64,000 nucleotides of DNA, taken from NCBI RefSeq assembly GCF_019916085.1, contig NZ_CP049834.1:976501-1040500 (forward strand). Reading direction: 5' to 3'. Below are positions 13,957 through 25,700 of this stretch, in pieces (within the stretch, counting starts at the first letter, position 1; each line of letters begins with the position of its first letter). Made by a program: the position numbers and the translations under genes. The notes beneath the pieces are model-generated. The model did no database searches. It was not told the origin of the DNA and saw nothing but the letters and a program-made list of their open reading frames with translations. The DNA is from Aquirufa lenticrescens (GTDB lineage: Bacteria; Bacteroidota; Bacteroidia; Cytophagales; Spirosomataceae).

Positions 13957-15150
13957 TTAGAAATTAACCTGTGCTTGTAAACGAAGCATATTTCCGGATT
14001 GCAAGTTTTCCTGTAATTTGAAATCCTCCGCTCTTCTAGTGGCCATTGTATACATGGCAACTAGCTCGAAATTTTTGTTTGGTTGCCATTCTATACCTAG
14101 TTCTGTTTCATCCACTCGGTAACTGCGCGCATCCAATTCGTGTTTTTTCCCTCCTTCATAATGCTGAACACGTACGAATGGAATAATCACCTGTTTTTTC
14201 CAGTCTATTTTATAGGATGCGGTCACGTAGCCTCCTGATAATTTCTGATTTTCAATCGCATCGGATGATTTGTTAAATTCTGGACCCGTTCCTACGTTGT
14301 ATTCTGCTTGAATTCCAAAAGGCTTAGGATATAATACAAAACTCGCAGCATAGCGCTCATCTAAATACGCCTTATCAACAGTTGCTTTTACACCAGCACT
14401 TAATTGATCTGATGCCATTACCCATTGACCTGAATATCCTTGAATACCCGCTTCAATGATTTGATTTTTAATCTGAATTGGATAAGTAAGTCGTGCTACA
14501 ATATGAGGGGCATCGTTTAATTCAGGCTTATTAGCAGTTTGGCCATTATAAGCACCTAATCCAAAAACACCATAATCTCCTGATCCTTTTAAACCATCCG
14601 CTACTAATGAAGAATATAGTTTACGAACAGATGCTGGTGCCCAGTAAAAGAATACTCCTAAATCACGTTCATTTGATACGGCACTATTCAAGGCATCATT
14701 ACGGTCTAATGGCAAACGATTTTGAGAGGATTGCATGTTTTCAAATCCAAAAGGGACCTTACTTTGTCCTACTCTAAATCGAAATTCATTTTTAGCATCT
14801 AAGCCAAGATCAAAATAAGCATCTCTTAACTGACCAAAGTGGAGAGAGGTAGAGGACGCGCTACTGGCAAAATCAGGTTGCACATAAAAATAAACGCGAT
14901 CATTAATTTGGCCGCTGAAAATGATCCGCATACGACGAATAAAAAAGCCCCCATTATCTCCTATGCTTCGATCACCTTGCTCAGATTTCAAATTAGGATT
15001 AGTTTCAAAAAGTCGATTGTAGCGAACTTGTGCATACCCGCGAATGGAGAAAGAATCGTACCATTTTTTAGGCGCTGGAGCTGTTTGTGCCTGCGCAAAA
15101 ATGAGGCAAAGGCAAGCCAAGACTCCTGTTAGGAGAAGATTTTTTTTCAT
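13957..15150 (-). CDS. Phosphate-selective porin (OprO/OprP family)
   Basis: A 397-residue outer-membrane porin. The signal peptide is MKKNLLLTGVLACLCLIFAQ with cleavage near AQAQ. The mature N-terminus (SIRGYAQVRYNRLFETNPN, FFIRRMRIIFSGQINDRVYF, YVQPDFA) is the OprO/P signature, and the protein ends in an aromatic Phe (QVNF) as beta barrels do. In Pseudomonas such porins conduct phosphate or polyphosphate. It follows a Pit transporter gene by 59 nt on the same strand, with no terminator between, so it probably shares the Pho-box promoter at 16.7 kb and supplies phosphate across the outer membrane. Confidence 0.9.
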   Translation of the reverse strand: MKKNLLLTGVLACLCLIFAQAQTAPAPKKWYDSFSIRGYAQVRYNRLFETNPNLKSEQGDRSIGDNGGFFIRRMRIIFSGQINDRVYFYVQPDFASSASSTSLHFGQLRDAYFDLGLDAKNEFRFRVGQSKVPFGFENMQSSQNRLPLDRNDALNSAVSNERDLGVFFYWAPASVRKLYSSLVADGLKGSGDYGVFGLGAYNGQTANKPELNDAPHIVARLTYPIQIKNQIIEAGIQGYSGQWVMASDQLSAGVKATVDKAYLDERYAASFVLYPKPFGIQAEYNVGTGPEFNKSSDAIENQKLSGGYVTASYKIDWKKQVIIPFVRVQHYEGGKKHELDARSYRVDETELGIEWQPNKNFELVAMYTMATRRAEDFKLQENLQSGNMLRLQAQVNF

Positions 15151-15209: not shown

Positions 15210-16667
15210 TTATGCGGCTATCCAGCGGAATAAAACGAATAAGGTAGCAGATAAAATAATCGTAACTGGCAAGGTTAAAACCCAAGCTAAAACAATGCTC
15301 TTAACGGTACCTCCTTGTAAGTTTTTGATACCTTTCGAAGCTACCATTGTACCAGCAATACCAGATGATAAAACGTGCGTCGTAGAAACTGGCCACTTGT
15401 AAGCAGTTGCTAAACCAATCGTTAGAGATGCGATTAATTCTGCTGATGCACCTTGCGCATAGGTTAAATGATTTTTACCGATTTTCTCACCGATTGTCAC
15501 AACAATTCGCTTCCAGCCCACCATTGTTCCTAAACCTAGTGATAAGGCAACCATCCACATTACCCAAGCTGGTGCGAAATCCGTTACTCCAGCAATTCCA
15601 GAGGAAGAGGAATTTCCGTAACTAAAGAATGGAGCTTTGTCTCCTTGTGTAGCTTTTTTTAATGCTTTCTTATCTCCAGAAGATAAAGCCACTGATTCGC
15701 TTTCAAGTAATTTCTTTGATTGCTTGTTGATTGTCAAAGCTGCATTACGAATGTCGAACTTTTGAGTTGTTGTTAACGTTTTGGGTGTTACTCCCGTAGC
15801 GATAATAGCACTCAAAGCAGTGGAAGACTTGACTAATTTGTGGTAGCTCTCCCGTTCTTTTTCAGACAAAGGAATGGTATCAATTTTAGCTGTAATAGTT
15901 TGCACTGTGGTTAAGCTTTCTTTCACTTGTACTAAGTCAAGGTTTGTATTAACAGCAAAATAGCCTGGTAAGAAAGCAATTAAGATAACCATAACCAGAC
16001 CGATCCCTTTTTGGCCATCATTACGACCATGAAAGAACGAAACTAACGTACAGGTCGTAATTAAGATAGCACGAATCCACATGGGTGGAGGTGATTTCTT
16101 CTTAGGCTCTTTGAAGATCTCTTTGTTTTTAACAGTTTTCTTTAAGATATACATCAAAATGATAGCCGCGGCAAAACCGAATAATGGCGACAAAAGTAGT
16201 GCTTGTCCAATTTCAATAGCCTTGTCCCAGTTAATAGACGATATTCCTTTATTTGAAGCTTCTGGCAATAAGGCATGTCCTACTCCGATACCAATAATTG
16301 AACCGATAAGCGTGTGTGAGCTTGAAGCAGGTATACCAAAATACCAAGTTCCCACGTTCCAAAGAATCGCAGAAAGCAACAACGCTAATGCCATGGCCAT
16401 GGAATGGTATACATCAGCGTCCATGAGAAGTTCGGTGGGCAATAGCCCAATAATACTCATGGTCACTCCTACCCCTCCCGTTAGAAGACCTAAGAAGTTC
16501 ATGAAACCAGACCAAACTACGGCTTGAGTAGGTTGCAAAGAATGCGTGTAAATAACAGTGGCTACTGCATTTGCTGTATCGTGGAATCCGTTTACGAATT
16601 CAAAGGCACAGGCCGCAAAAAGGCAGAAAAACAGTAGAAATACGAGCGTTGGGTCTAATCCGAACAT
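15210..16667 (-). CDS. Inorganic phosphate transporter, Pit family (copy 1)
   Basis: A 485-residue low-affinity phosphate:cation symporter. The PD001131-type repeats are visible at both ends: FEFVNGFHDTANAVATVIYT near the N-terminus and AQGASAELIASLTIGLATAY with KWPVSTTHVLSSGIAGTMVA near the C-terminus. About 10-12 membrane segments flank a central soluble loop (residues about 240-350). It is a paralogue of the gene at 18.6-20.1 kb; membrane parts match almost throughout, while the central loop has diverged. It has its own promoter with Pho-box-like repeats and precedes a phosphate porin. Confidence 0.96.
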   Translation of the reverse strand: MFGLDPTLVFLLFFCLFAACAFEFVNGFHDTANAVATVIYTHSLQPTQAVVWSGFMNFLGLLTGGVGVTMSIIGLLPTELLMDADVYHSMAMALALLLSAILWNVGTWYFGIPASSSHTLIGSIIGIGVGHALLPEASNKGISSINWDKAIEIGQALLLSPLFGFAAAIILMYILKKTVKNKEIFKEPKKKSPPPMWIRAILITTCTLVSFFHGRNDGQKGIGLVMVILIAFLPGYFAVNTNLDLVQVKESLTTVQTITAKIDTIPLSEKERESYHKLVKSSTALSAIIATGVTPKTLTTTQKFDIRNAALTINKQSKKLLESESVALSSGDKKALKKATQGDKAPFFSYGNSSSSGIAGVTDFAPAWVMWMVALSLGLGTMVGWKRIVVTIGEKIGKNHLTYAQGASAELIASLTIGLATAYKWPVSTTHVLSSGIAGTMVASKGIKNLQGGTVKSIVLAWVLTLPVTIILSATLFVLFRWIAA

Positions 16668-16700: not shown

Positions 16701-16728
16701 CAAAAATAAGGAACCCTATTTAATCCAA
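16701..16728 (-). promoter_or_regulatory. Promoter of pit copy 1 and porin
   Basis: On the minus strand: TTG (16728-16726), 17-nt spacer, TATTTTTG (16708-16701). This matches the Bacteroidota consensus and lies 34 nt upstream of the start codon. The Pho-box-like repeats abut its upstream edge. Confidence 0.7.
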
Positions 16729-16767
16729 TGTTAAGGAATTGTTAATTGAATGTTACGTAATTATTAA
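16729..16767 (-). promoter_or_regulatory. Pho-box-like direct repeat array (pit copy 1)
   Basis: On the minus strand four hexamers step at exactly 11 bp: TTAATA (16767-16762), GTAACA (16756-16751), TTAACA (16745-16740), TTAACA (16734-16729). The last ends 20 nt before the -7 element. TTAACA-N5 repeats are the known PhoP box of Bacillus, and 11-bp repeats are the PhoB arrangement in E. coli; the assignment here is by analogy. Confidence 0.75.
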
Positions 16768-16849
16768 TCATACCCAAAAGCCAATATTAAATTTTCTGTA
16801 TTTGATTAAAACTTAATGCATTAAAGTTTCTTTTCCTGAAATCTTTACA

Positions 16850-16857
16850 TAAGTTTG
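16850..16857 (+). promoter_or_regulatory. Promoter -7 element for the basic-protein gene
   Basis: TAAGTTTG matches TAnnTTTG and lies 23 nt before the ATG at 16881. An imperfect upstream partner (TTTC near 16827-16830) is about 19-20 nt away. No Pho-box-like repeat lies in front of it. Confidence 0.5.
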
Positions 16858-16880
16858 ACGACAACTATAATCCCAATAAA

Positions 16881-17255
16881 ATGAGTGAGGATAATAAAAA
16901 ATTAACCGACCAACTAGTTCAAGCCATTCTTCCAAAACTGAAAGGTTTAACTGAAAAAAACGCCAAAAAAGTCCTTAATGAGACTGAAAAGTCCATTACT
17001 TCGGTGGTCAAAAAATACAGTAAACTGATCGCAGAACAAGAGAAAGAAAAGGCTAAAGCGAAACACAAAGCGGAGAAAGACGCTAAAAAGAAAGCGGAGA
17101 AAGCAGCTAAAAAGAAAGAAAAGGAGGCTAAAAAACTAGCAAAGGCAAAATTACTTGCTGCACTTATTGCGAAAGAGAGCCCAGCAAAAGCTTCAACACC
17201 AGCTACAGCAACAAAGGCTAAGCCCAGAGCACGTATTGCTAAAGCTAAAAAATAA
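16881..17255 (+). CDS. Lysine/alanine-rich basic protein, unknown function
   Basis: A 124-residue protein without a recognised family. Residues 1-50 are mixed helical (ILPKLKGLTEKNAKKVLNET); residues about 50-95 are an almost pure K/A/E repeat likely to form a single long charged helix or coiled coil; the C-terminus (KAKPRARIAKAKK) resembles histone-H1-like tails. A nucleic-acid or polyanion-binding role is possible. It is transcribed away from pit copy 1 and has its own -7 element and terminator, so it is a separate unit despite lying in the phosphorus island. Confidence 0.8.
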   Translation: MSEDNKKLTDQLVQAILPKLKGLTEKNAKKVLNETEKSITSVVKKYSKLIAEQEKEKAKAKHKAEKDAKKKAEKAAKKKEKEAKKLAKAKLLAALIAKESPAKASTPATATKAKPRARIAKAKK

Positions 17256-17276
17256 ATAAAACAGCATTAAAAGTTT

Positions 17277-17300
17277 AAAAGGCAGGATTCCCTGCCTTTT
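17277..17300 (+). terminator. Terminator after the basic-protein gene
   Basis: A 10-bp stem (AAAAGGCAGG / CCTGCCTTTT) with a 4-nt loop ATTC and a following T-run, 21 nt after the stop codon. Confidence 0.9.
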
Positions 17301-17348
17301 TTCGTTTGGTCTCATCCCGGAAATTCATAATAATTTGATTAATTAGGC

Positions 17349-17365
17349 TTAACATCTAGTTAATA
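17349..17365 (+). promoter_or_regulatory. Pho-box-like direct repeat (HpnW-like gene)
   Basis: TTAACA (17349-17354), 5 nt, TTAATA (17360-17365): two hexamers at 11-bp spacing, now on the plus strand in the same orientation relative to the gene as in front of the two pit genes. The first box ends exactly 20 nt before the -7 element, the same distance as at the other three sites. Confidence 0.6.
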
Positions 17366-17374
17366 TGTAGATAC

Positions 17375-17382
17375 TATTTTTG
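17375..17382 (+). promoter_or_regulatory. Promoter -7 element for the HpnW-like gene
   Basis: TATTTTTG, a full match to TAnnTTTG, 53 nt upstream of the start. There is no TTG at the -33 position; the Pho-box-like hexamers occupy that place, as expected of an activator-dependent promoter. Confidence 0.6.
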
Positions 17383-17435
17383 ATACAAAGGAAGCAGCCT
17401 TATTGTACGCATAAGGATGCCTGAAATGCGCTAAA

Positions 17436-18596
17436 ATGATCAAAAATAGAAAATACGATTTAGTTGTAGTTGGCGGAGGAATTATAGGTACTTTTTGTGC
17501 CTACCATGCTTTAAAAAAGGGCAAATCCGTTCTTTTATTAGAAAAAGACAGTCAGCCACATGAAGCGAGCATACGCAACTTTGGCCAAATTATTCCCTCC
17601 GGACAATCCCTAGATACCTGGTTTCAAATAGGGAGAAAATCACTTAAAATTTACAAAGAACTACAAGAGGAATCCGCTATTTCATTGACCAAAAATGGCT
17701 CTTGGTATATCGCGTCAGATGAGCAAGAAATGGCTGTTTTAGAAGAAATGGCTAGTCAATTCCAATCACTTGAGTATGCCTCTACCGTATTTTCAGCTCA
17801 AGCCACTCTAGAAAAAAACCCTGCCTTAAACAAAGACCATACGAAAGGAGGATTGTTCCTACCCGAAGAGGCATCCATCAACCCCGTGTTATTAGTACAT
17901 CAATTGAGAGAATTTTTAATTAAGCACTTCGGGCTTCACTACCATCACTCTTGCCCCGTTATTTCAGTAGAAAAAAAGCGGGGAATCGCGATGATTAGTA
18001 CCTCAAAAAAACAAACGTTTTGGGGAGACCATGTGATTTTAGCCAATGGACATGACACCCAATTTTTATTACCGGAACATTATCCTACGACAGATTTAAA
18101 AATCTGTAAACTGCAGATGATGCGTTTAGTCCCACAAAGAATTCAATTCAGCGCTAATTTATTGTCAGGCCTTTCTATCAGACGATATGAAAGTTTCAAA
18201 TCCTGTCCTTCCTATGCTACATTGAAGACCTCTGATGAACAAAAAGTGCTTCAATCCAAGGGAATCCACATTTTATTAAAACAAGCAGAAGATGGATCTA
18301 TTATCCTCGGGGATTCTCACGAATACGTTTCAGCTAGCGATGAGTCACCATTAGGCTTTGAAATTAGTGCTGAAATCAATGAGTTAATATTGAGCGAAGC
18401 GAAGAAAATAGTTACACTAGACTCTTGGGAATTAGACTCTAACTGGATTGGCCACTACTTAGAGGCTAAACAGGCAGAGGTTTATACCAAAACGATAGAC
18501 CAAGTCATACATATTGTAAATGGTATAGGCGGGAAAGGCGTTACCACCTCTCCCGGATTTACCTATGAGTACATTCAACAGTTATACTCGATTTAA
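17436..18596 (+). CDS. FAD-dependent oxidoreductase, HpnW-like (TIGR03364 type), possibly phosphonate-related
   Basis: A 386-residue DAO-fold flavoenzyme. The N-terminal Rossmann motif is YDLVVVGGGIIGTFCAYHAL, and EASIRNFGQIIPSGQ follows at about residues 48-62; that RNFG region is typical of the TIGR03364 group, which is often found near phosphonate-degradation genes. The C-terminus has the second FAD contact (VNGIGGKGVTTSPGFTYEYI). It probably oxidises an amine such as an aminophosphonate, but no phosphonatase gene is in the window, so the substrate is inferred. It lies between two Pit genes, behind a Pho-box-like repeat. Its stop is 1 nt from the convergent pit stop. Confidence 0.75.
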   Translation: MIKNRKYDLVVVGGGIIGTFCAYHALKKGKSVLLLEKDSQPHEASIRNFGQIIPSGQSLDTWFQIGRKSLKIYKELQEESAISLTKNGSWYIASDEQEMAVLEEMASQFQSLEYASTVFSAQATLEKNPALNKDHTKGGLFLPEEASINPVLLVHQLREFLIKHFGLHYHHSCPVISVEKKRGIAMISTSKKQTFWGDHVILANGHDTQFLLPEHYPTTDLKICKLQMMRLVPQRIQFSANLLSGLSIRRYESFKSCPSYATLKTSDEQKVLQSKGIHILLKQAEDGSIILGDSHEYVSASDESPLGFEISAEINELILSEAKKIVTLDSWELDSNWIGHYLEAKQAEVYTKTIDQVIHIVNGIGGKGVTTSPGFTYEYIQQLYSI

Positions 18597-18597
18597 T

Positions 18598-20055
18598 CTA
18601 TCCCGTTATCCAACGGAAGAATAAGAATAACAAGGCCGAAAGTATAATGGTTACGGGCAAGGTTAAAACCCAAGCCAATACGATACTTTTCACTGTTCCT
18701 CCTTGAAGATTTTTGATACCTCTTTGTGCTACCATTGTTCCCGCGATACCTGAACTTAATACGTGAGTAGTACTTACTGGCCACTTATAGGCGGTTGCTA
18801 AACCAATCGTCAATGATGCAATCAATTCAGCTGAAGCCCCTTGTGCATACGTCAAGTGATCTTTACCAATTTTCTCCCCAATCGTTACGACGATACGTTT
18901 CCAACCGATCATAGTCCCAAGACCTAGTGACAAAGCTACCATCCACATTACCCAATTAGGGGCAAAATCAGTCACTCCTGCCATACCAGTACTCGAGGAC
19001 GCCCCTAAGGTAAAAAATGGCGCCTTAGAACCAGCCGTTGCCTTTTTCCATGCTGCTTTGTCATTTTCGGATAATGCAACCGATTCACTTTCAATCAACT
19101 TCTTGGAGAATTTATTAATGGTTAAAGCCGCTTTACGAATCGCAAATTTTTGATCAGTAGAAAGCGTAGATGGATTTAGATTTTGAGCCGTTATAATCGA
19201 TAAATCTGCTGACGATTTCTTTAATTGGGCTAAGCCATCACGTTCTTTTTCAGACAACGGAATGGTATCAATTTTGGCAGATATCGATTGTACCGTTGCA
19301 AGACTAGACTTCACCATTTGCATATCTAAAGTCGTATTGATGGCAAAATAACCTGGCAAGAAAGCGATCAAGATAACCATCACTAAACCGATTCCCTTTT
19401 GACCATCATTACGACCATGAAAGAATGAGACTAGAGTACACGTTGCGATTAACAAGGAGCGAATCCACATAGGTGGCGGGGACTTCTTTTTAGGTTCTTT
19501 GAAGATCTCTTTATTCGTAATCGTCTTTTTTAAGATGTACATCAAGATAATCGCTAAAGCAAAACCAAACAAAGGAGAAAGCAATAATGCCTGCCCAATT
19601 TCAATGACTTTATCCCAATTCAAAGCGGCAATCCCTTTGTTCGAATCTTCAGGTAAGAGCGCATGTCCTACTCCGATACCGATAATCGAACCTATCAAGG
19701 TGTGCGAACTAGAGGCAGGGATGCCTAAATACCAAGTTCCTAGGTTCCATAAAATCGCAGAAATCAACAAAGAAAGAGCCATAGCCATCGAATGGTAGAC
19801 ATTCGTATCCACGAGTAATTCCGTGGGGAGCAGTCCGATAATACTCATCGTTACCCCTACGCCACCGGTTAATAGACCTAGGAAGTTCATGAATCCTGAC
19901 CACACCACAGCTTGGGTAGGGCGCAAGGAATGGGTATAAATGACTGTGGCAACGGCATTAGCCGTATCATGAAAACCATTCACAAATTCAAATGCACAGG
20001 CTGCGATTAAGCAAAAGCAAAGCAGGAAAAACAAAGTAGGATCTAATCCGAACAT
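18598..20055 (-). CDS. Inorganic phosphate transporter, Pit family (copy 2)
   Basis: A 485-residue Pit transporter, the same length as copy 1. The start used is the ATG at 20055 (MFGLDPTLFFLLCFCLIAAC), which aligns with copy 1; a TTG two codons upstream is unlikely. FEFVNGFHDTANAVATVIYT and KWPVSTTHVLSSGIAGTMVA are shared exactly with copy 1, and the central loop (residues about 240-350) differs most. It has its own promoter with two Pho-box-like repeats. The tandem-like arrangement separated by the HpnW-like gene suggests duplication. Confidence 0.96.
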   Translation of the reverse strand: MFGLDPTLFFLLCFCLIAACAFEFVNGFHDTANAVATVIYTHSLRPTQAVVWSGFMNFLGLLTGGVGVTMSIIGLLPTELLVDTNVYHSMAMALSLLISAILWNLGTWYLGIPASSSHTLIGSIIGIGVGHALLPEDSNKGIAALNWDKVIEIGQALLLSPLFGFALAIILMYILKKTITNKEIFKEPKKKSPPPMWIRSLLIATCTLVSFFHGRNDGQKGIGLVMVILIAFLPGYFAINTTLDMQMVKSSLATVQSISAKIDTIPLSEKERDGLAQLKKSSADLSIITAQNLNPSTLSTDQKFAIRKAALTINKFSKKLIESESVALSENDKAAWKKATAGSKAPFFTLGASSSTGMAGVTDFAPNWVMWMVALSLGLGTMIGWKRIVVTIGEKIGKDHLTYAQGASAELIASLTIGLATAYKWPVSTTHVLSSGIAGTMVAQRGIKNLQGGTVKSIVLAWVLTLPVTIILSALLFLFFRWITG

Positions 20056-20084
20056 AGCCAATTGATGGTAAAAATATGATTACT

Positions 20085-20129
20085 CTAAGGTAAGGTACAA
20101 TTAAAAAACACGTGTTAAGGAATTGTTAA
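20085..20129 (-). promoter_or_regulatory. Pho-box-like repeats and -7 element of pit copy 2
   Basis: On the minus strand TTAACA (20129-20124), 5 nt, TTAACA (20118-20113), then 20 nt, then TACCTTAG (20092-20085), one mismatch from TAnnTTTG. The geometry equals that of copy 1. A second possible -7 (TATTTTTA at 20076-20069, with TTG at 20100-20098) would also serve. Confidence 0.65.
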
Positions 20130-20133
20130 ATCC

Positions 20134-21192
20134 CTATTTCACTTCACTCTTAAACGAGACACCGATAGCCTTTGCAGCCTTATGAATTAAGTCTTTTTGA
20201 TAAACCTGTTCTTTCGATTTCACTTCGCCTAAAGCAGGGACATTCGCCCCTATCATTGCATACCAAATCTGGTAGCAATCCTTTACACTATCGCCGTGGG
20301 ATGTCCATTGCGTTTTAATCGCATCTCCGCGACCGTGGTCTGTCGTGATCAATAAGGTTGTTTTTCCTTTGTATTCCGGATCTGAATTTACAAAATCCCA
20401 AATCTCCCCTACCCAAGCATCAAACTGGTGTGCAGCATCCAGGTAGTGATTGTAAGCACCCTCGTGTGCAAACTCATCTGTTTCACCATAAGAAATATAG
20501 AGTGCTTTAGGCTTGTTCTTTTTCAAATAATGCATCGCCTTGAAATGCGTAAATGCGTCTAGCGATTCTGCCATACCAAAAGGCTTAAACGATTCTTTTA
20601 ACATCTTAGCCAACATCGTAATCTCTGGATCTTTCTCTAACTCAGGATACGAATCGAACGCATTCACCACAGGAAAACCAGCTCTTTTCTCATTTAAAAT
20701 ACGATCAAAAGCATCCCAAGCTCCGAATGCGGCTACCTTTCCTTTATAAGCTGGTAAGGAGTTCAAGTATTCAAAAAAGTTCGTATTCGGATTAGGTTTG
20801 TAGTCATTTGAATTCACCAAAGTATCCACCTGACCCGTTAAAATCTCACTATATCCGGGATATGAAAACCAATAGGGATTCGCATTGTCTACTTGGCTTC
20901 CAGCAGCTCTATTGCCGTGAATTTGGCCTGAAGCAGCTAATTTGCTCCAGAAAAAAGGCATTAGTTTTGTGCGTCTTTCTGCCAAAGTAGGTGCATAATA
21001 TTGCTGAATTAAACGAGCAGAATCACCGTGGTGAAAACGCTTCATTTTGACAATCGAAGTATCGATACCGTTAAATAATTCTTGCCAACGATATCCATCT
21101 GTCGTGATGACAATGACACGCGCATCAGAATTGGCTTGTTGGGCAAAAATACAGGGAGAGCAAAGAAGGAAAAAAAGGACTAGTCGTTTCAT
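20134..21192 (-). CDS. Secreted alkaline-phosphatase-superfamily (NPP-like) enzyme
   Basis: A 352-residue protein with a signal peptide (MKRLVLFFLLCSPCIFAQ). The alkaline phosphatase superfamily sites are visible in order: VIVITTDGYRW (first metal Asp near residue 32), SYPGYSEILTG (the probable Ser nucleophile, compare the PNH-T/S of nucleotide pyrophosphatases), YGETDEFAHEG, LLITTDHGRGD and TSHGDSV. It probably releases phosphate from phosphomonoesters or diesters in the periplasm, for uptake by the adjacent Pit transporters. It is read in the same direction just upstream of pit copy 2. No Pho-box-like repeat was found in front of it. Confidence 0.82.
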   Translation of the reverse strand: MKRLVLFFLLCSPCIFAQQANSDARVIVITTDGYRWQELFNGIDTSIVKMKRFHHGDSARLIQQYYAPTLAERRTKLMPFFWSKLAASGQIHGNRAAGSQVDNANPYWFSYPGYSEILTGQVDTLVNSNDYKPNPNTNFFEYLNSLPAYKGKVAAFGAWDAFDRILNEKRAGFPVVNAFDSYPELEKDPEITMLAKMLKESFKPFGMAESLDAFTHFKAMHYLKKNKPKALYISYGETDEFAHEGAYNHYLDAAHQFDAWVGEIWDFVNSDPEYKGKTTLLITTDHGRGDAIKTQWTSHGDSVKDCYQIWYAMIGANVPALGEVKSKEQVYQKDLIHKAAKAIGVSFKSEVK

Positions 21193-21262
21193 CGTTTGGT
21201 TTAAAAGGCAAGGCTAAGTTAGACAAATAATTAGAATTTCATTCTTATACCATTTAAACAAG

Positions 21263-21291
21263 AAATGCCGAGGAGAACCCCCTCGGCATTT
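21263..21291 (-). terminator. Terminator of the TonB receptor-lipoprotein operon
   Basis: An 11-bp stem (AAATGCCGAGG / CCTCGGCATTT) with a 7-nt loop, 25 nt beyond the lipoprotein stop and upstream of the phosphatase gene. It separates the two minus-strand transcripts. Confidence 0.8.
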
Positions 21292-21315
21292 TCTGTATTA
21301 CACCAATATATTATC

Positions 21316-22524
21316 TTATTGACCTTTTACTGGGAAACGAGTCCAACCTGTAGTCCAGCTTGGTTTTTCCAATTTCAAGATCTCTGCATCAGTCGATTCA
21401 ATTTCTGAATTTCCATCTGCTAAAGCTTTTGTCTTTACATCAGCAGAGCTAATGACAGCTGACTTACTGATGAAATTTAATGCCGTATTAGGCGTATAGG
21501 TGCCAATCTTGTTGTTCTTGAAAGTAGAAACTCCATCCTTATAGGCTTGTGCTGTTTCGTTACTTTCTAAACTGAATCCACCTTTCATATATCCAATGAA
21601 TGTTGAATTGCTTACTTCGAATTGAGTAGCACGTCTCCAACGCATAGCTAAGTTATGATTAGAAAGAGCCGCTGCATTATTTGGCCCAATTAAGGTCATA
21701 TTGTCTAAAACTGGACGCGTAAATGGTGTTGCAACTGAACCAGTTCCATCATTATCACATTCAATTCCGTTACCTGCATCTCCTGTATCTACGAAGGCTG
21801 GATCGCGTCTTGATATAGAGAAAGATACTTTGCCAGTATAACCAAAGTCAAAGTCAAAATCATCATCCGCTGTTGCGTAAGCATATAAATATTTTGGAGA
21901 AACCGTTCCTCCGAAGAATTCAAAGGCATCATCATTTGCATAGATTGTCTGCACGTTCTCGATAATAGTTTTGCTACCTACAGCACCGAAAGTCAAGGCA
22001 TTGATCTCAGAGTTAGGCAATGCCGCGATACCAGCGTATTCAATACGTACATATTTCATCACGCCGCTGTTATCTTCGTTATCTGTTCCACCATACGCAC
22101 GACCAATACCACCCTCAATCGTAGGCTCAGATGTACGGTTCGTCTTAGCTCTTCCTAAGATGACGATTCCACCCCAATCTCCTGGAGCACGCTCGCCTGC
22201 TGCCTTACCTGAAGTAAAGACGATAGGCTTAGCAGCCGTTCCTTCAGCTTGAATTTTTGCACCTCTTTCGATACATAAAGCACCTTTTTCTGAGATATCA
22301 CTTTTGATAACAGTACCTGGTTGAATAATAAGGGTAGCTCCATCGGTTACATAAACGTATCCTTTTAATGTCCATTCCTTATCCGCAGTTAAGGTCGTAG
22401 TTGCCGTAATGTTTCCACTTAAAGTCGTAGTAGAGGGTACGTTAATAGGTGCTACATCGCCACCTAAATCCTTTGAACAGCCAAATGTTGCTAAAGCTGC
22501 TACGATAACTAGTAATTTTTTCAT
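21316..22524 (-). CDS. Lipoprotein, predicted beta-helix type, partner of the TonB receptor
   Basis: A 402-residue lipoprotein: MKKLLVIVAALATFGCSKDL has a lipobox ending at Cys16. The rest is rich in T, G, N and D with repeated patterns such as GYVYVTDGATLIIQPGTVIK and EGTAAKPIVFTSG, typical of right-handed beta-helix proteins of Bacteroidota that are usually unassigned. It starts 1 nt after the TonB receptor stop, so it is cotranscribed and probably surface exposed beside it. It falls under the Pho-box-like promoter at 25.1 kb. The ligand is unknown, perhaps a phosphorus compound. Confidence 0.75.
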   Translation of the reverse strand: MKKLLVIVAALATFGCSKDLGGDVAPINVPSTTTLSGNITATTTLTADKEWTLKGYVYVTDGATLIIQPGTVIKSDISEKGALCIERGAKIQAEGTAAKPIVFTSGKAAGERAPGDWGGIVILGRAKTNRTSEPTIEGGIGRAYGGTDNEDNSGVMKYVRIEYAGIAALPNSEINALTFGAVGSKTIIENVQTIYANDDAFEFFGGTVSPKYLYAYATADDDFDFDFGYTGKVSFSISRRDPAFVDTGDAGNGIECDNDGTGSVATPFTRPVLDNMTLIGPNNAAALSNHNLAMRWRRATQFEVSNSTFIGYMKGGFSLESNETAQAYKDGVSTFKNNKIGTYTPNTALNFISKSAVISSADVKTKALADGNSEIESTDAEILKLEKPSWTTGWTRFPVKGQ

Positions 22525-22525
22525 G

Positions 22526-25021
22526 TTAGAAATTGTAATTAACGGTGAGTGAAACAGATGTTTCGTTGTTTGTTTTAATTAAATCACGTGAAGGCTTTTG
22601 GTAGAAAGTAGTAGGCTGAGCTAGGATGTCGCTCACCGCCAATTTAATTTCTCCTTTATTGAATTTTCTTAAGAAAACGATATCAATAACGTCTCTTGAA
22701 TTTTCAAAAATGTCTGGATAACCTTGGAAACCTACAGAAGCGATGCGATCGCCTACTCGGTTATAGGTTAGGTTTATTGTGTTATCTCCTTTGTGGAAGT
22801 TCAAACCTCCATTCAATGCATAATTAGATTGGCCTTGAAGCTGGCGTTTTACCCCTTGAACTTCTACCTCCGATTGAATCAACGCCATGTTAGAGTATAA
22901 ATCTAACCAAGAGTTAATCGCTTTTCTAAATTCCATTTCCAAGCCATAGACTAGCGCCGATGGAGGATTCGTATACGTTAAAGCTAGATTAGAAGGAACA
23001 GAACCATCTGCTACAATTTGCTCGATAGGCTTAATGAATTTCTTGCCAAAAACACCCACTGAGAAGATTTCACCCGCTTTTGGATATAATTCCCACTTGA
23101 AATCAATGTTATAGATATCCGATTTTTCCAAATCCTTATTTCCTAATAACTGCGCATTACGAACAAAGTCATAGTAGGCAAAATTCGCTACCTCACGGAA
23201 CTCTGGTCTCGCTAAGGTTTTGCTAAGCGATGTTCTCCATTTTGTTTTTTCTGTAGCAGAGTAAGTTAAGTTTAAGGATGGCAAAAGATCTAAGTATTCT
23301 CTTTCCACATTCACTTTTTGACCACTAAAGTCAGCCGTTGCGATATTAAAGAGGTTATACTCTGTACGAAGACCTGTATTTAACTTGAATAATCCGATCT
23401 CTTTTTCATACATCACAAATCCATTCGCTAAGTCGAAATCAGCCGTATAACGATCCGTATTATTCGTTACCTCACCTAACATATCAATGGTTTCGTAACG
23501 GAATACACGTGCTTTGAAGTTTCTGTATTTCTTTAAGTAACCTGCACCTACTTTAATATCACCAAATGACTTATTAATCGCTGCATTTCCCGCATTTTCA
23601 TCCATCACACTCCAGAAACGGTAAGTGTCTCTCCAAGCAGTCAAATAAGGATTGCCTGAGTTTAAATACGAAGCAGTAGGATTAACTCGGTAATCAGGTT
23701 GATCACGAAGCATTAAATTATATCCGATGTTAAAATCCCAAGTCTTGATTTTTGCATCAAACTGGGTATTAACAACCATTTTACGGATGGCATTAGATGA
23801 ATTACTGTAGATGTTCTGTACGTTATCGTAATTTTCACCCGTTCTATTCAAGAAATAATCTTCTGTTTGGTAGTTAGCTAGAGTCTTCCAGCTGTAACGG
23901 TTTTGGCCTAAATAAACTACATTCAATAAGCCACTCAAGGACTTCGTTTGCGAGAAATTGATATCCTTGTATTTATAAGCTAAGTCAGTGGAAGATAAGT
24001 AATCAATACGCTCTGTCGTAGAGGAAGAAAACGTGTTTCTCGCGGTAGAGCTAAATAATACGTTCCAGTTATTTCTTTTTACACCAAAAGCCACACTTCC
24101 ATTGAAGTTAGGAAGGCTAGAAGACTCTGTAATACCAGGAGTCGCAATCAACTTCGTATATGCTCGCTTATCACCATTTCCACTAATTCTGAAAGCGTTT
24201 GTGGAAGGGAAAGTAGAAGGGAACTCTACAGATTGAATTAATTTGAAATCCTTGAAAGTAGAAAGAGAACCGTAACTTACTCCTAGAGAAGCGGAAGCAA
24301 AATCTCCTGAAACTTCTTTGGTAGTAATTTGAACTAATCCACCGGCAAAATCACCTGGTAAGTTTGCTGCTGCTCCTTTATTAATGATAATGTTATCAAT
24401 TAAAGAAGTAGGGATAATATCGAATGAGAAGGCACGACGATCTGGCTCTGTGGAAGGCAATTGAGTCTTATTTAATAAAGCAGAGTTATAACGATCGGCT
24501 AAACCACGTACTAATACGAATTTATCGTTTTGGATAGTTACACCACTCACACGCTTCAACGCATCACTCACATTTCTATCAGGTGTTTTCTTAATCGACT
24601 CGATGGATAAACCATCGGCTACTATGAAACTAGATTTCAAGGTGTTTATCAGGGCAGTAGCCGTTTCTTTTTTGGCAACGGTCTTAACCACTACATCTGC
24701 TAATAATTTACTGTCTTCTTCTAACTCTATCGTAACGATAACAGGTTCTGATCCAACCTTAAAAGCTGGATTGCTGTATTCCTTAAAACCTACATAACTA
24801 GAACTTAAAGAATAGGTTCCAGGAGCCACATTCGCAAAGGTAAACTTACCATCGATATCTGTGGATGCTCCTTGATTTTTACCTGTTGATGGATTTTTTA
24901 ACCAAACGGTTACACCTACTAAGGTTTCTTTGGAAGACTTAACAACTCCAGAAACTTGAACCTGCGCAAAAGAGAAAAGAGGGAATAATAAAAGGATGAA
25001 TTGGTGCTTAAATGAATTCAT
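22526..25021 (-). CDS. TonB-dependent outer-membrane receptor, predicted phosphate-starvation inducible
   Basis: An 831-residue receptor. The start used is the ATG at 25021 (MNSFKHQFILLLFPLFSFAQ, a clear signal peptide); a frame 14 codons longer lacks one. Domains: a carboxypeptidase-regulatory-like domain (VSGVVKSSKETLVGVTVWLK, residues about 22-100), a plug (KKTPDRNVSDALKRVSGVTI, IDNIIINKGAAANLPGDFAG), and a barrel ending in the aromatic VNYNF. It imports a substrate with TonB energy; four Pho-box-like repeats at its promoter point to a phosphorus-containing ligand, which is inference. The lipoprotein gene follows by 1 nt. Confidence 0.9.
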   Translation of the reverse strand: MNSFKHQFILLLFPLFSFAQVQVSGVVKSSKETLVGVTVWLKNPSTGKNQGASTDIDGKFTFANVAPGTYSLSSSYVGFKEYSNPAFKVGSEPVIVTIELEEDSKLLADVVVKTVAKKETATALINTLKSSFIVADGLSIESIKKTPDRNVSDALKRVSGVTIQNDKFVLVRGLADRYNSALLNKTQLPSTEPDRRAFSFDIIPTSLIDNIIINKGAAANLPGDFAGGLVQITTKEVSGDFASASLGVSYGSLSTFKDFKLIQSVEFPSTFPSTNAFRISGNGDKRAYTKLIATPGITESSSLPNFNGSVAFGVKRNNWNVLFSSTARNTFSSSTTERIDYLSSTDLAYKYKDINFSQTKSLSGLLNVVYLGQNRYSWKTLANYQTEDYFLNRTGENYDNVQNIYSNSSNAIRKMVVNTQFDAKIKTWDFNIGYNLMLRDQPDYRVNPTASYLNSGNPYLTAWRDTYRFWSVMDENAGNAAINKSFGDIKVGAGYLKKYRNFKARVFRYETIDMLGEVTNNTDRYTADFDLANGFVMYEKEIGLFKLNTGLRTEYNLFNIATADFSGQKVNVEREYLDLLPSLNLTYSATEKTKWRTSLSKTLARPEFREVANFAYYDFVRNAQLLGNKDLEKSDIYNIDFKWELYPKAGEIFSVGVFGKKFIKPIEQIVADGSVPSNLALTYTNPPSALVYGLEMEFRKAINSWLDLYSNMALIQSEVEVQGVKRQLQGQSNYALNGGLNFHKGDNTINLTYNRVGDRIASVGFQGYPDIFENSRDVIDIVFLRKFNKGEIKLAVSDILAQPTTFYQKPSRDLIKTNNETSVSLTVNYNF

Positions 25022-25067
25022 GATAGAATTGGTGTGAAATAATAGTTGACGTGATTTAATCATGCAA

Positions 25068-25134
25068 CAAAATTAGATTTCACCCAATCCGAATTGGTTA
25101 AGCCATTGTTAGGCTTTTGTTATCTACTTGTTAA
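25068..25134 (-). promoter_or_regulatory. Pho-box-like array and -7 element of the TonB receptor operon
   Basis: On the minus strand four hexamers step at exactly 11 bp: TTAACA (25134-25129), ATAACA (25123-25118), CTAACA (25112-25107), TTAACC (25101-25096); 20 nt later comes TAATTTTG (25075-25068), a full -7 match. There is no -33 TTG, so activation probably depends on the repeats. This is the longest and most regular array of the four. Confidence 0.75.
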
Positions 25135-25282
25135 ATAGAAGTTGTTTTCTTAATAATTCGATAACATTGAGATTTTTCACAGAAAATTTCACTTTTCTAC
25201 ACTGTTTTATAGTACAATTTCAAGTTTTTGCATTTTCTATAGAAGAACTTTCTTAGAAAAGTGAAAATTAACACGGATTTAA

Positions 25283-25361: not shown

Positions 25362-25700
25362 ATGAAAAAGTACACATTTGCTGCCTTATTATTCGCAGCC
25401 AGCCTGTTTGTCGTTTCTGCCGCTAATGGAGCAGAATTAACTCTTCCCGTGAACATTGAATCTGTAGGTAAATTGAAATATAAGGTATCTGCCAAAGCAG
25501 GAGCCACAGTCGTTATCTACGATGAAGAAAATAACGAGATTCACAAGGAAGGAATCGCGTCGCAAAAATTGTTCAATTTGGCGGGATTATCAGATGGAAA
25601 CTACCGAATGGTAGTCTTAGATGACCACAAAAACGTGTTGACTTCTAAGTCGTTTACGATCAAAACGGAAGTGAAACGCGATATTGTCGCTATGAACTAA
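25362..25700 (+). CDS. Small secreted protein, unknown function
   Basis: A 112-residue protein with a signal peptide (MKKYTFAALLFAASLFVVSA, cleavage near NGA). The mature part has beta-sandwich-like alternation (VGKLKYKVSAKAGATVVIYD, GNYRMVVLDDHKNVLTSKSF) resembling the carboxy end of small Bacteroidota secreted proteins. No catalytic motif is seen. It has its own promoter and terminator, and is divergent from the TonB receptor. Confidence 0.8.
   Translation: MKKYTFAALLFAASLFVVSAANGAELTLPVNIESVGKLKYKVSAKAGATVVIYDEENNEIHKEGIASQKLFNLAGLSDGNYRMVVLDDHKNVLTSKSFTIKTEVKRDIVAMN

Follow-up and report, generated by a model that had tools for sequence, protein, structure and literature searches.

Arrays of TTAACA half-sites in 11-bp register with the -7 element are predicted Pho boxes in Aquirufa lenticrescens and other Bacteroidota

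The Pho box of Escherichia coli ends about 10 bp ahead of the -10 hexamer, near -23, and the PhoP boxes of Bacillus subtilis are TTAACA-like repeats with spacers of about 5 nt. In Bacteroidota, phosphate responses have been established through expression studies. Here we describe arrays of TTAACA-type hexamers at four promoters in a 64,000-nt stretch (the window; G000:C1:976501-1040500) of the 2.5-Mb, one-contig genome of Aquirufa lenticrescens, a freshwater bacterium of the family Spirosomaceae. The layout recurs before phosphate genes across the phylum and is very probably a code read by PhoB; we regard the arrays as predicted Pho boxes, that is, PhoB operators, with a probability of about 0.87. 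The E. coli box is built from CTGTCAT in 11-nt direct repeat units (PMC4415409). The two systems are alike in the same-orientation half-sites, the 11-bp period, a near-identical recognition helix and a position near the core promoter, here 9 nt from the -7 element or further upstream by multiples of 11 bp. They differ in the half-site, TTAACA(T), in the promoter element, TAnnTTTG, and in the main target, which is Pit and not Pst; in addition, the proximal half-site is usually missing at pit genes, where the array begins one helical turn further upstream. The B. subtilis boxes resemble the arrays in half-site and spacing and are unlike them in phylum, sigma factor and promoter.

In Flavobacterium johnsoniae, Fjoh_0545, which has the same three Pfam domains as the TonB-dependent receptor of the window, the lipoprotein Fjoh_0546 and the PF01676 phosphatase Fjoh_2225 go up on phosphate depletion (PMC8115612); these genes were likened to ours by domains only. 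In Bacteroides fragilis, pst, a porin O and a phosphate/sulphate permease (BF3715) are PhoB-dependent, and PhoB binds a 512-bp pst promoter fragment in an electrophoretic mobility shift assay (PMC3547664). These regulons share with the genes described below a TonB receptor with lipoprotein, a PF01676 phosphatase, PlcP, pst, porin O and a permease. A word search of the main texts of both papers returned one general Pho box remark and no DNA consensus. Putative Pho boxes lie before plcP clusters of marine heterotrophic bacteria, and Bacteroidetes plcP homologues are mentioned (PMC4796936); these are predicted phosphate-regulator sites as here, and the available text gives no sequence or spacing for them, nor does it place any of them in Bacteroidetes. 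For Riemerella anatipestifer PhoP, an OmpR/PhoB-family regulator of the same phylum, DNA affinity purification sequencing placed peaks before 764 genes, with TTTAACA as the most conserved letters of an ArcA-like motif (PMC9603813). This core is nearly identical to ours, and no spacing rule or promoter register is reported in the available text. A published Bacteroidota Pho operator sequence, 11-bp rule or register was not found among the listed open-licence papers. With a checked spacing grammar, a genome sequence would be enough to list a Pho regulon, along with any uncharacterised outer-membrane receptors and lipoproteins in it.

At all four promoters of the window, TTAACA-type boxes stand at an 11-bp period, at the positions given for them in the preliminary description, and in each promoter one box ends 20 nt before a -7 element of the TAnnTTTG type, as had also been claimed (Table 1). 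The promoters precede two Pit-family transporter genes (pit1 and pit2), the oxidoreductase gene hpnW and the receptor gene. The pit1 and pit2 promoters are not independent, because the two proteins are 85% identical and the same 17-bp pair is found in both promoters; exact copies of the hexamer pair number only two in the genome, one ahead of each pit gene. A strict scan of the window, under a rule set after the sites were known, asked for two neighbouring boxes with no more than 1 mismatch between them and a -7 element with no more than 1 of its own. It recovered pit1, pit2 and hpnW and did not recover the TonB receptor promoter; 100 order-2 Markov shuffles gave 0.01 matches on average. The -7 variant of pit2, TACCTTAG, is seen again in genus relatives.

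When 1 mismatch was allowed, the full pattern (TTAACA-N5-TTAACA-N20-TAnnTTTG) was present in 147 of 200 Spirosomaceae genomes, and the reversed pattern, used as control, in 9 of 200. In a sample of the phylum, the corresponding counts were 70 and 7 of 296 genomes. Among the matches listed from a search with free spacing, a class with gap 5 and N20 is accompanied by lineage-specific classes (gap 4, N21 or N22). Triple arrays, with boxes ending at 31, 20 and 9 nt, occur in some relatives. Boxes are only weakly enriched at positions on which the pattern was not conditioned (9 of 116 matches at 9 nt and 5 of 116 at 42 nt).

A motif-blind test was carried out at pit genes, for which orthologues were found in 61 of 61 family genomes. 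Upstream regions of 62 of the 64 pit matches were used, excluding the A. lenticrescens pit2 and a second copy in G045, and were analysed as sets of 51 and 11, the latter having failed a start-codon rule. Allowing 1 mismatch, 48 of the 62 regions (41/51 and 7/11) contain a pair at 11-bp period; allowing 2, the counts are 50/51 and 10/11. Shuffles of the 51 regions gave 0.30 and 3.25, respectively, and other gaps from 1 to 11 occurred at most 4 times with at most 1 mismatch. Among 59 regions with a pair, a count that omits regions L296, L314 and L298, 44 have exactly 9, 20 or 31 nt between the last pair and the best -7 element, 12 miss the register by one or two bases and 3 have other distances. 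By genus, 20 of the 28 genera in the first 51-region set were wholly in exact register and 21 had at least one such region, in a tally built on distances transcribed by hand. These independent tests in relatives, together with the window shuffles, support the view that the arrangement across promoters is unlikely to be due to chance.

The pit-region distances fall mostly on three values, which makes 20 nt a single step in a register of 9+11k, with boxes ending 9, 20 or 31 nt ahead of the -7 element. Two steps are visible within the hpnW promoter, with TTAACA at 20 nt and TTAATA at 9 nt. The spacing rule of the preliminary description is real, but its distance is not fixed at 20 nt: a strictly fixed value was rejected, since 9 and 31 are found repeatedly and distances of 21, 22 or 32 occur in some genera. 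In Flavobacterium psychrophilum, TAnnTTTG occupies positions -12 to -5 (PMC9723704), which would place the half-site ends near -22, -33 and -44. The proximal half-site is present at hpnW and at many phoB genes. Among the features of a PhoB-type Pho box, the arrays have at least two half-sites in the same orientation, repeating every 11 bp, a set position relative to the core promoter (at pit and phoB regions) and a place before phosphate-acquisition genes. With the E. coli box ending near -23 and the most proximal half-site here near -22, the phase is nearly equal.

The genes behind the box were surveyed in two sets. For the family, 80 of the listed matches outside the genus Aquirufa were taken, hand-picked for spread; among 20 further stretches, L140-L152 were considered only in the later analysis that also covered the second set of phoB regions (see below), and L153-L154 were left out. 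The family set held 101 loci after exclusion of 9 duplicates (L042-L050), 5 of them without a downstream frame, leaving 96 proteins. Pit accounts for 36 of these and two receptor clusters for 12 and 5. There are 5 phosphonatase-like HAD proteins (the representative scored best on TIGR03351, below cut-off), 4 phosphocholine-specific phospholipases C (the representative above cut-off), 4 response regulators (3 like the A. lenticrescens PhoB-like regulator described below, 1 like another regulator of this genome) and 2 proteins similar to the 402-aa putative lipoprotein of the window. Metallophosphoesterases are among the singletons, acid-phosphatase-like proteins also occur, and the remainder is mixed or unassigned. 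At least one match, L026, falls within a reading frame and is likely to be spurious.

Named genomes were scanned with the exact pattern plus one extra T behind the second box, which gave at least 118 stretches. Among those listed, 112 are from Bacteroidota (8 of them Ignavibacteria or Kapaibacterium) and 6 from other groups. The 115 downstream proteins of the listed matches, cut to 420 aa and with 25 of 50 families listed, include 34 PHO4 proteins, 29 with CarboxypepD_reg as in receptors, 5 Porin_O_P, 3 pyruvate phosphate dikinases (L347, L419, L440), 2 Na/Pi-cotransporters, and one each of PBP_like_2, polyphosphate kinase (Ppk), a DUF47 PhoU-like protein and an OmpR-type regulator; about 40 are unrelated or unassigned. 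Seven more Algoriphagus proteins have a common start sequence, and the one that was tested, with a similar protein from another genome, matched PHO4 weakly, under the cut-off. Two genomes of a single genus, from a different family in the same class, have an exact box ahead of a DUF47 gene that is followed by a Pit-like frame.

A family of the same phylum and a different class, f23, was picked after the phylum scan had given it four matches. A search of 30 of the 35 genomes gave 25 pstS-like matches, and the top 15 of these were analysed. Upstream of these, the 11-bp pair was present in 8 of 15 regions with at most 1 mismatch (0.07 expected) and in 10 of 15 with at most 2, and no other gap occurred more than once with at most 1 mismatch. 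Three of the regions (G425, G447 and G471) were already phylum-scan matches, so the set is not wholly independent. The motif collects at phosphate genes in the family, in the named genomes and at f23 pstS-like regions, a point that the preliminary description had put forward as a check, and its proposal of a Pho-like regulon with a Bacteroidota Pho-box grammar is supported at the level of sequence evolution.

Pit is usually regarded as a constitutive low-affinity importer. In Spirosomaceae, PstA scored over its cut-off in 1 of 61 genomes, with weaker matches in 41 more, and had no match in A. lenticrescens. The PF12849 proteins of the family were tried as true pstS and rejected, several looking like neighbours of TonB-type genes; their upstream regions, which then served as a negative control, had the box in 0 of 30 cases with at most 1 mismatch and in 2 of 30 with at most 2. 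Because PstA is nearly gone, pst and PF12849 genes of the family are without the box and pit genes have it, Pit appears to be the Pho-controlled importer in Spirosomaceae, in place of Pst. Pho control of Pit with almost no Pst raises the question of how phosphate is sensed in this family. In Staphylococcus aureus, PhoU-like proteins linked to Pit and Npt can control the phosphate kinase (PMC13170248), which offers a possible model for sensing without Pst.

The PhoB homologue mentioned in the preliminary description has a PhoB-like counterpart among the three OmpR-type (PF00486) regulators in the A. lenticrescens genome. Its two best models are both PhoB (TIGR02154 and NF053854). Its recognition helix, the element with the DNA-contacting residues of PhoB, reads RTVDVHIRKLR and is one residue apart from that of E. 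coli PhoB (RTVDVHIRRLR), and the helices of the other two regulators are widely different. The gene has a box of its own, with the array TTAACAATTCCATAACA ending 10 nt from TATATTTG. Orthologues were found in 59 of 61 family genomes. Two orthologue matches (G030:C26:27868-28554 and G009:C236:20911-21597) each contain one in-frame stop, which may reflect an error or the natural terminus of the gene.

Regions upstream of phoB were taken from 30 of 67 matches and supplemented by 8 hand-picked ones from more distant genera. An 11-bp pair with at most 1 mismatch was found in 14 of the 38. Among the first 30, the pair occurs in 8 regions when 1 mismatch is allowed and in 13 when 2 are, as compared with 0.3% and 4.5% in shuffles, and in several genera the pair stands 10 nt from the -7 element. 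The second set gave 6 and 7 of 8 (0.04 and 0.78 of 8 in shuffles), with no other gap above 1 at the stricter threshold; the distance to the -7 element was 9 nt in five regions, 20 in one and 21 in one, placing 6 of 7 in register. As a separate observation, a recurring TTAAnTTTGTGTTAAGA-like sequence replaces the array in phoB promoters of many other genera (L198-L211), often about 36 nt from a -7 candidate.

We propose that at low phosphate, phosphorylated PhoB would bind head-to-tail on the TTAACA half-sites, which, coming every 11 bp, would place it on one face of the DNA. From half-sites held in fixed register with the TAnnTTTG -7 element, at about -22, -33 and -44, PhoB would recruit or stabilise RNA polymerase. 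The targets would raise phosphate import, through pit1 with the porin OprP and through pit2, and scavenging, through the TonB receptor, the lipoprotein and the phosphatase; hpnW would probably serve phosphonate use. Pit would replace Pst as the regulated importer. This model builds on the observed sequence, register, conservation, gene content and box before the gene of the PhoB-like orthologue, and adds to them presumed PhoB binding and activation, a presumed low-phosphate signal and presumed operons. The arrays offer a clear test case for activator action at TAnnTTTG promoters. In a broader scenario, a single ancestral Pho code of the phylum (TTAACA, 11-bp period, 9+11k register to the Bacteroidota -7 element) would have moved onto Pit in Spirosomaceae with an orphan PhoB, its signal probably not coming from Pst/PhoU, and a second regulator, at 10-bp period, would be kept apart by spacing; for this scenario as a whole we consider the odds even.

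Several observations weigh against the arrays being PhoB operators. Given Riemerella PhoP, a TTAACA half-site alone is no proof of a phosphate regulator. In A. lenticrescens, the array was found solely at the four window promoters and phoB, and the hexamer pair alone, with at most 1 mismatch, had 20 matches in the genome as against 30 for the reversed pattern. The expectation that the motif is rarer in control DNA thus holds for the full pattern in relatives but not for the pair in A. lenticrescens, where the pair was rejected as a marker of the regulon. Only about 45 of the 115 listed proteins from named genomes belong to specifically phosphate-related families, and the 29 of TonB-receptor type have no assigned substrate. 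In f23, the register (9 or 20 nt) is kept by 4 or 5 of the 8 pairs and missed by the others, and the one Spirosomaceae genome with a true pst operon has no pair there with at most 2 mismatches. The PhoB-like regulator scores below the curated cut-offs (206.8 vs 296.2 and 202.6 vs 270) and is for this reason named a PhoB-like orthologue and not an equivalog; none of the genome's 7 HisKA matches (6 over cut-off) lies near its gene, in C1:296000-306000. Genome G028 has a pit box and no PhoB match at 1e-40 (47 of 58 candidates scored), and 18 of the 38 regions ahead of phoB lack a pair when 2 mismatches are allowed. In F. johnsoniae, OprP (Fjoh_0542) and PhoR are not induced (PMC8115612).

Some of these points would fit a different OmpR-type regulator, similar to Riemerella PhoP with its ArcA-like motif, that answers a non-phosphate signal and has phosphate genes as just some of its targets. 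The breadth of the Riemerella peaks and their TTTAACA core (PMC9603813), the pit box of G028 and a second TTAACA array, of 10-bp period, beside another kinase-regulator pair in A. lenticrescens and its genus lend themselves to this explanation. We nevertheless consider it improbable, as the genes behind the 11-bp array are strongly enriched for phosphate function and a PhoB-type helix occurs solely in the PhoB-like regulator, whose gene bears the array. A related question is the direction of control. A box ending 9 nt before the -7 element sits within the core promoter, and some PhoB-dependent genes of B. fragilis drop at low phosphate (PMC3547664), as might be expected if the array repressed its promoters, for example at high phosphate. 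Receptor and lipoprotein genes similar to ours go up at low phosphate in F. johnsoniae (PMC8115612), however, and deletion of phoB in B. fragilis makes pst and permease genes drop at low phosphate (PMC3547664), which renders general repression very unlikely. The notion that the arrays are merely chance AT-rich repeats together with duplicated pit promoters, devoid of regulatory meaning, could appeal to the pair count in this genome and to the common ancestry of pit1 and pit2, but it is contradicted by the controls in 200 and 296 genomes, the motif-blind tests and the conservation across genera and is hardly credible. Activation by PhoB from these predicted Pho boxes is the reading that we prefer.

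The genes behind the arrays are listed in Table 1. The porin O/P gene likely belongs to a pit1 operon. The receptor is likely the first gene of another operon, with the putative lipoprotein as second and the alkaline-phosphatase-superfamily protein as third; proteins similar to the lipoprotein come after the box in other genomes as well. The real start of the receptor is probably near 25021, where an ATG is followed by a signal peptide. Between pit1 and hpnW lies a 124-aa lysine/alanine-rich reading frame without a family match (16881-17255). A weaker pair, TTAATA-N5-ATAACA (25150-25166, + strand), faces a gene at 25362-25700 and has no clear -7 element at 20 nt.

Table 1. Arrays, promoter elements and genes, with positions in the window unless a contig is named.
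Feature	Position	Strand	Remarks
Four-hexamer array, pit1	16729..16767	-	11-bp period; TTAATA 16767-16762, GTAACA 16756-16751, TTAACA 16745-16740, TTAACA 16734-16729; last TTAACA separated by 20 nt from -7 element
Candidate degenerate fifth hexamer, pit1	16718..16723	-	TTAAAT; 9 nt ahead of -7 element; two mismatches, weak
-7 element, pit1	16701..16708	-	TATTTTTG
pit1	15210..16667	-	Pit-family phosphate transporter (PF01384)
Porin gene	13957..15150	-	Phosphate-selective porin O/P family; next gene after pit1, 59 nt away
Two-hexamer array, hpnW	17349..17365	+	TTAACA 17349-17354, ends 20 nt before -7 element; TTAATA 17360-17365, ends 9 nt before it
-7 element, hpnW	17375..17382	+	TATTTTTG
hpnW	17436..18596	+	FAD-dependent oxidoreductase, TIGR03364 (HpnW), above curated cut-off
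Two-hexamer array, pit2	20113..20129	-	TTAACA 20129-20124, TTAACA 20118-20113
-7-like element, pit2	20085..20092	-	TACCTTAG; one mismatch; 20 nt behind array
pit2	18598..20061	-	Pit-family phosphate transporter
Four-hexamer array, TonB receptor	25096..25134	-	TTAACA 25134-25129, ATAACA 25123-25118, CTAACA 25112-25107, TTAACC 25101-25096
-7 element, TonB receptor	25068..25075	-	TAATTTTG; read directly; 20 nt behind TTAACC
TonB-dependent receptor gene	22526..25063	-	PF14905, PF13715, PF07715
Putative lipoprotein gene	21316..22524	-	402 aa; no Pfam match
Alkaline-phosphatase-superfamily gene	20134..21192	-	PF01676, PF01663
PhoB-like regulator gene	G000:C1:301364-302089	-	Outside the window

Two other kinds of TTAACA promoter were seen. 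The 10-bp-period array of A. lenticrescens lies at G000:C1:1538226-1538271 (L136, - strand), N22 before a TAAGTTTG-type element, with others at L138 and L139, and similar arrays are found in many genomes of the genus. It precedes a gene for a secreted protein of 267-277 aa, which in A. lenticrescens is divergent from the kinase-regulator pair. This is perhaps the code of another regulator, with the same half-site and another period. In two genomes of one genus (L141 and L151), a TTAACA-N4-TTAACA run stands ahead of the same 324-aa reading frame, making this another conserved TTAACA promoter that is not of the 11-bp class.

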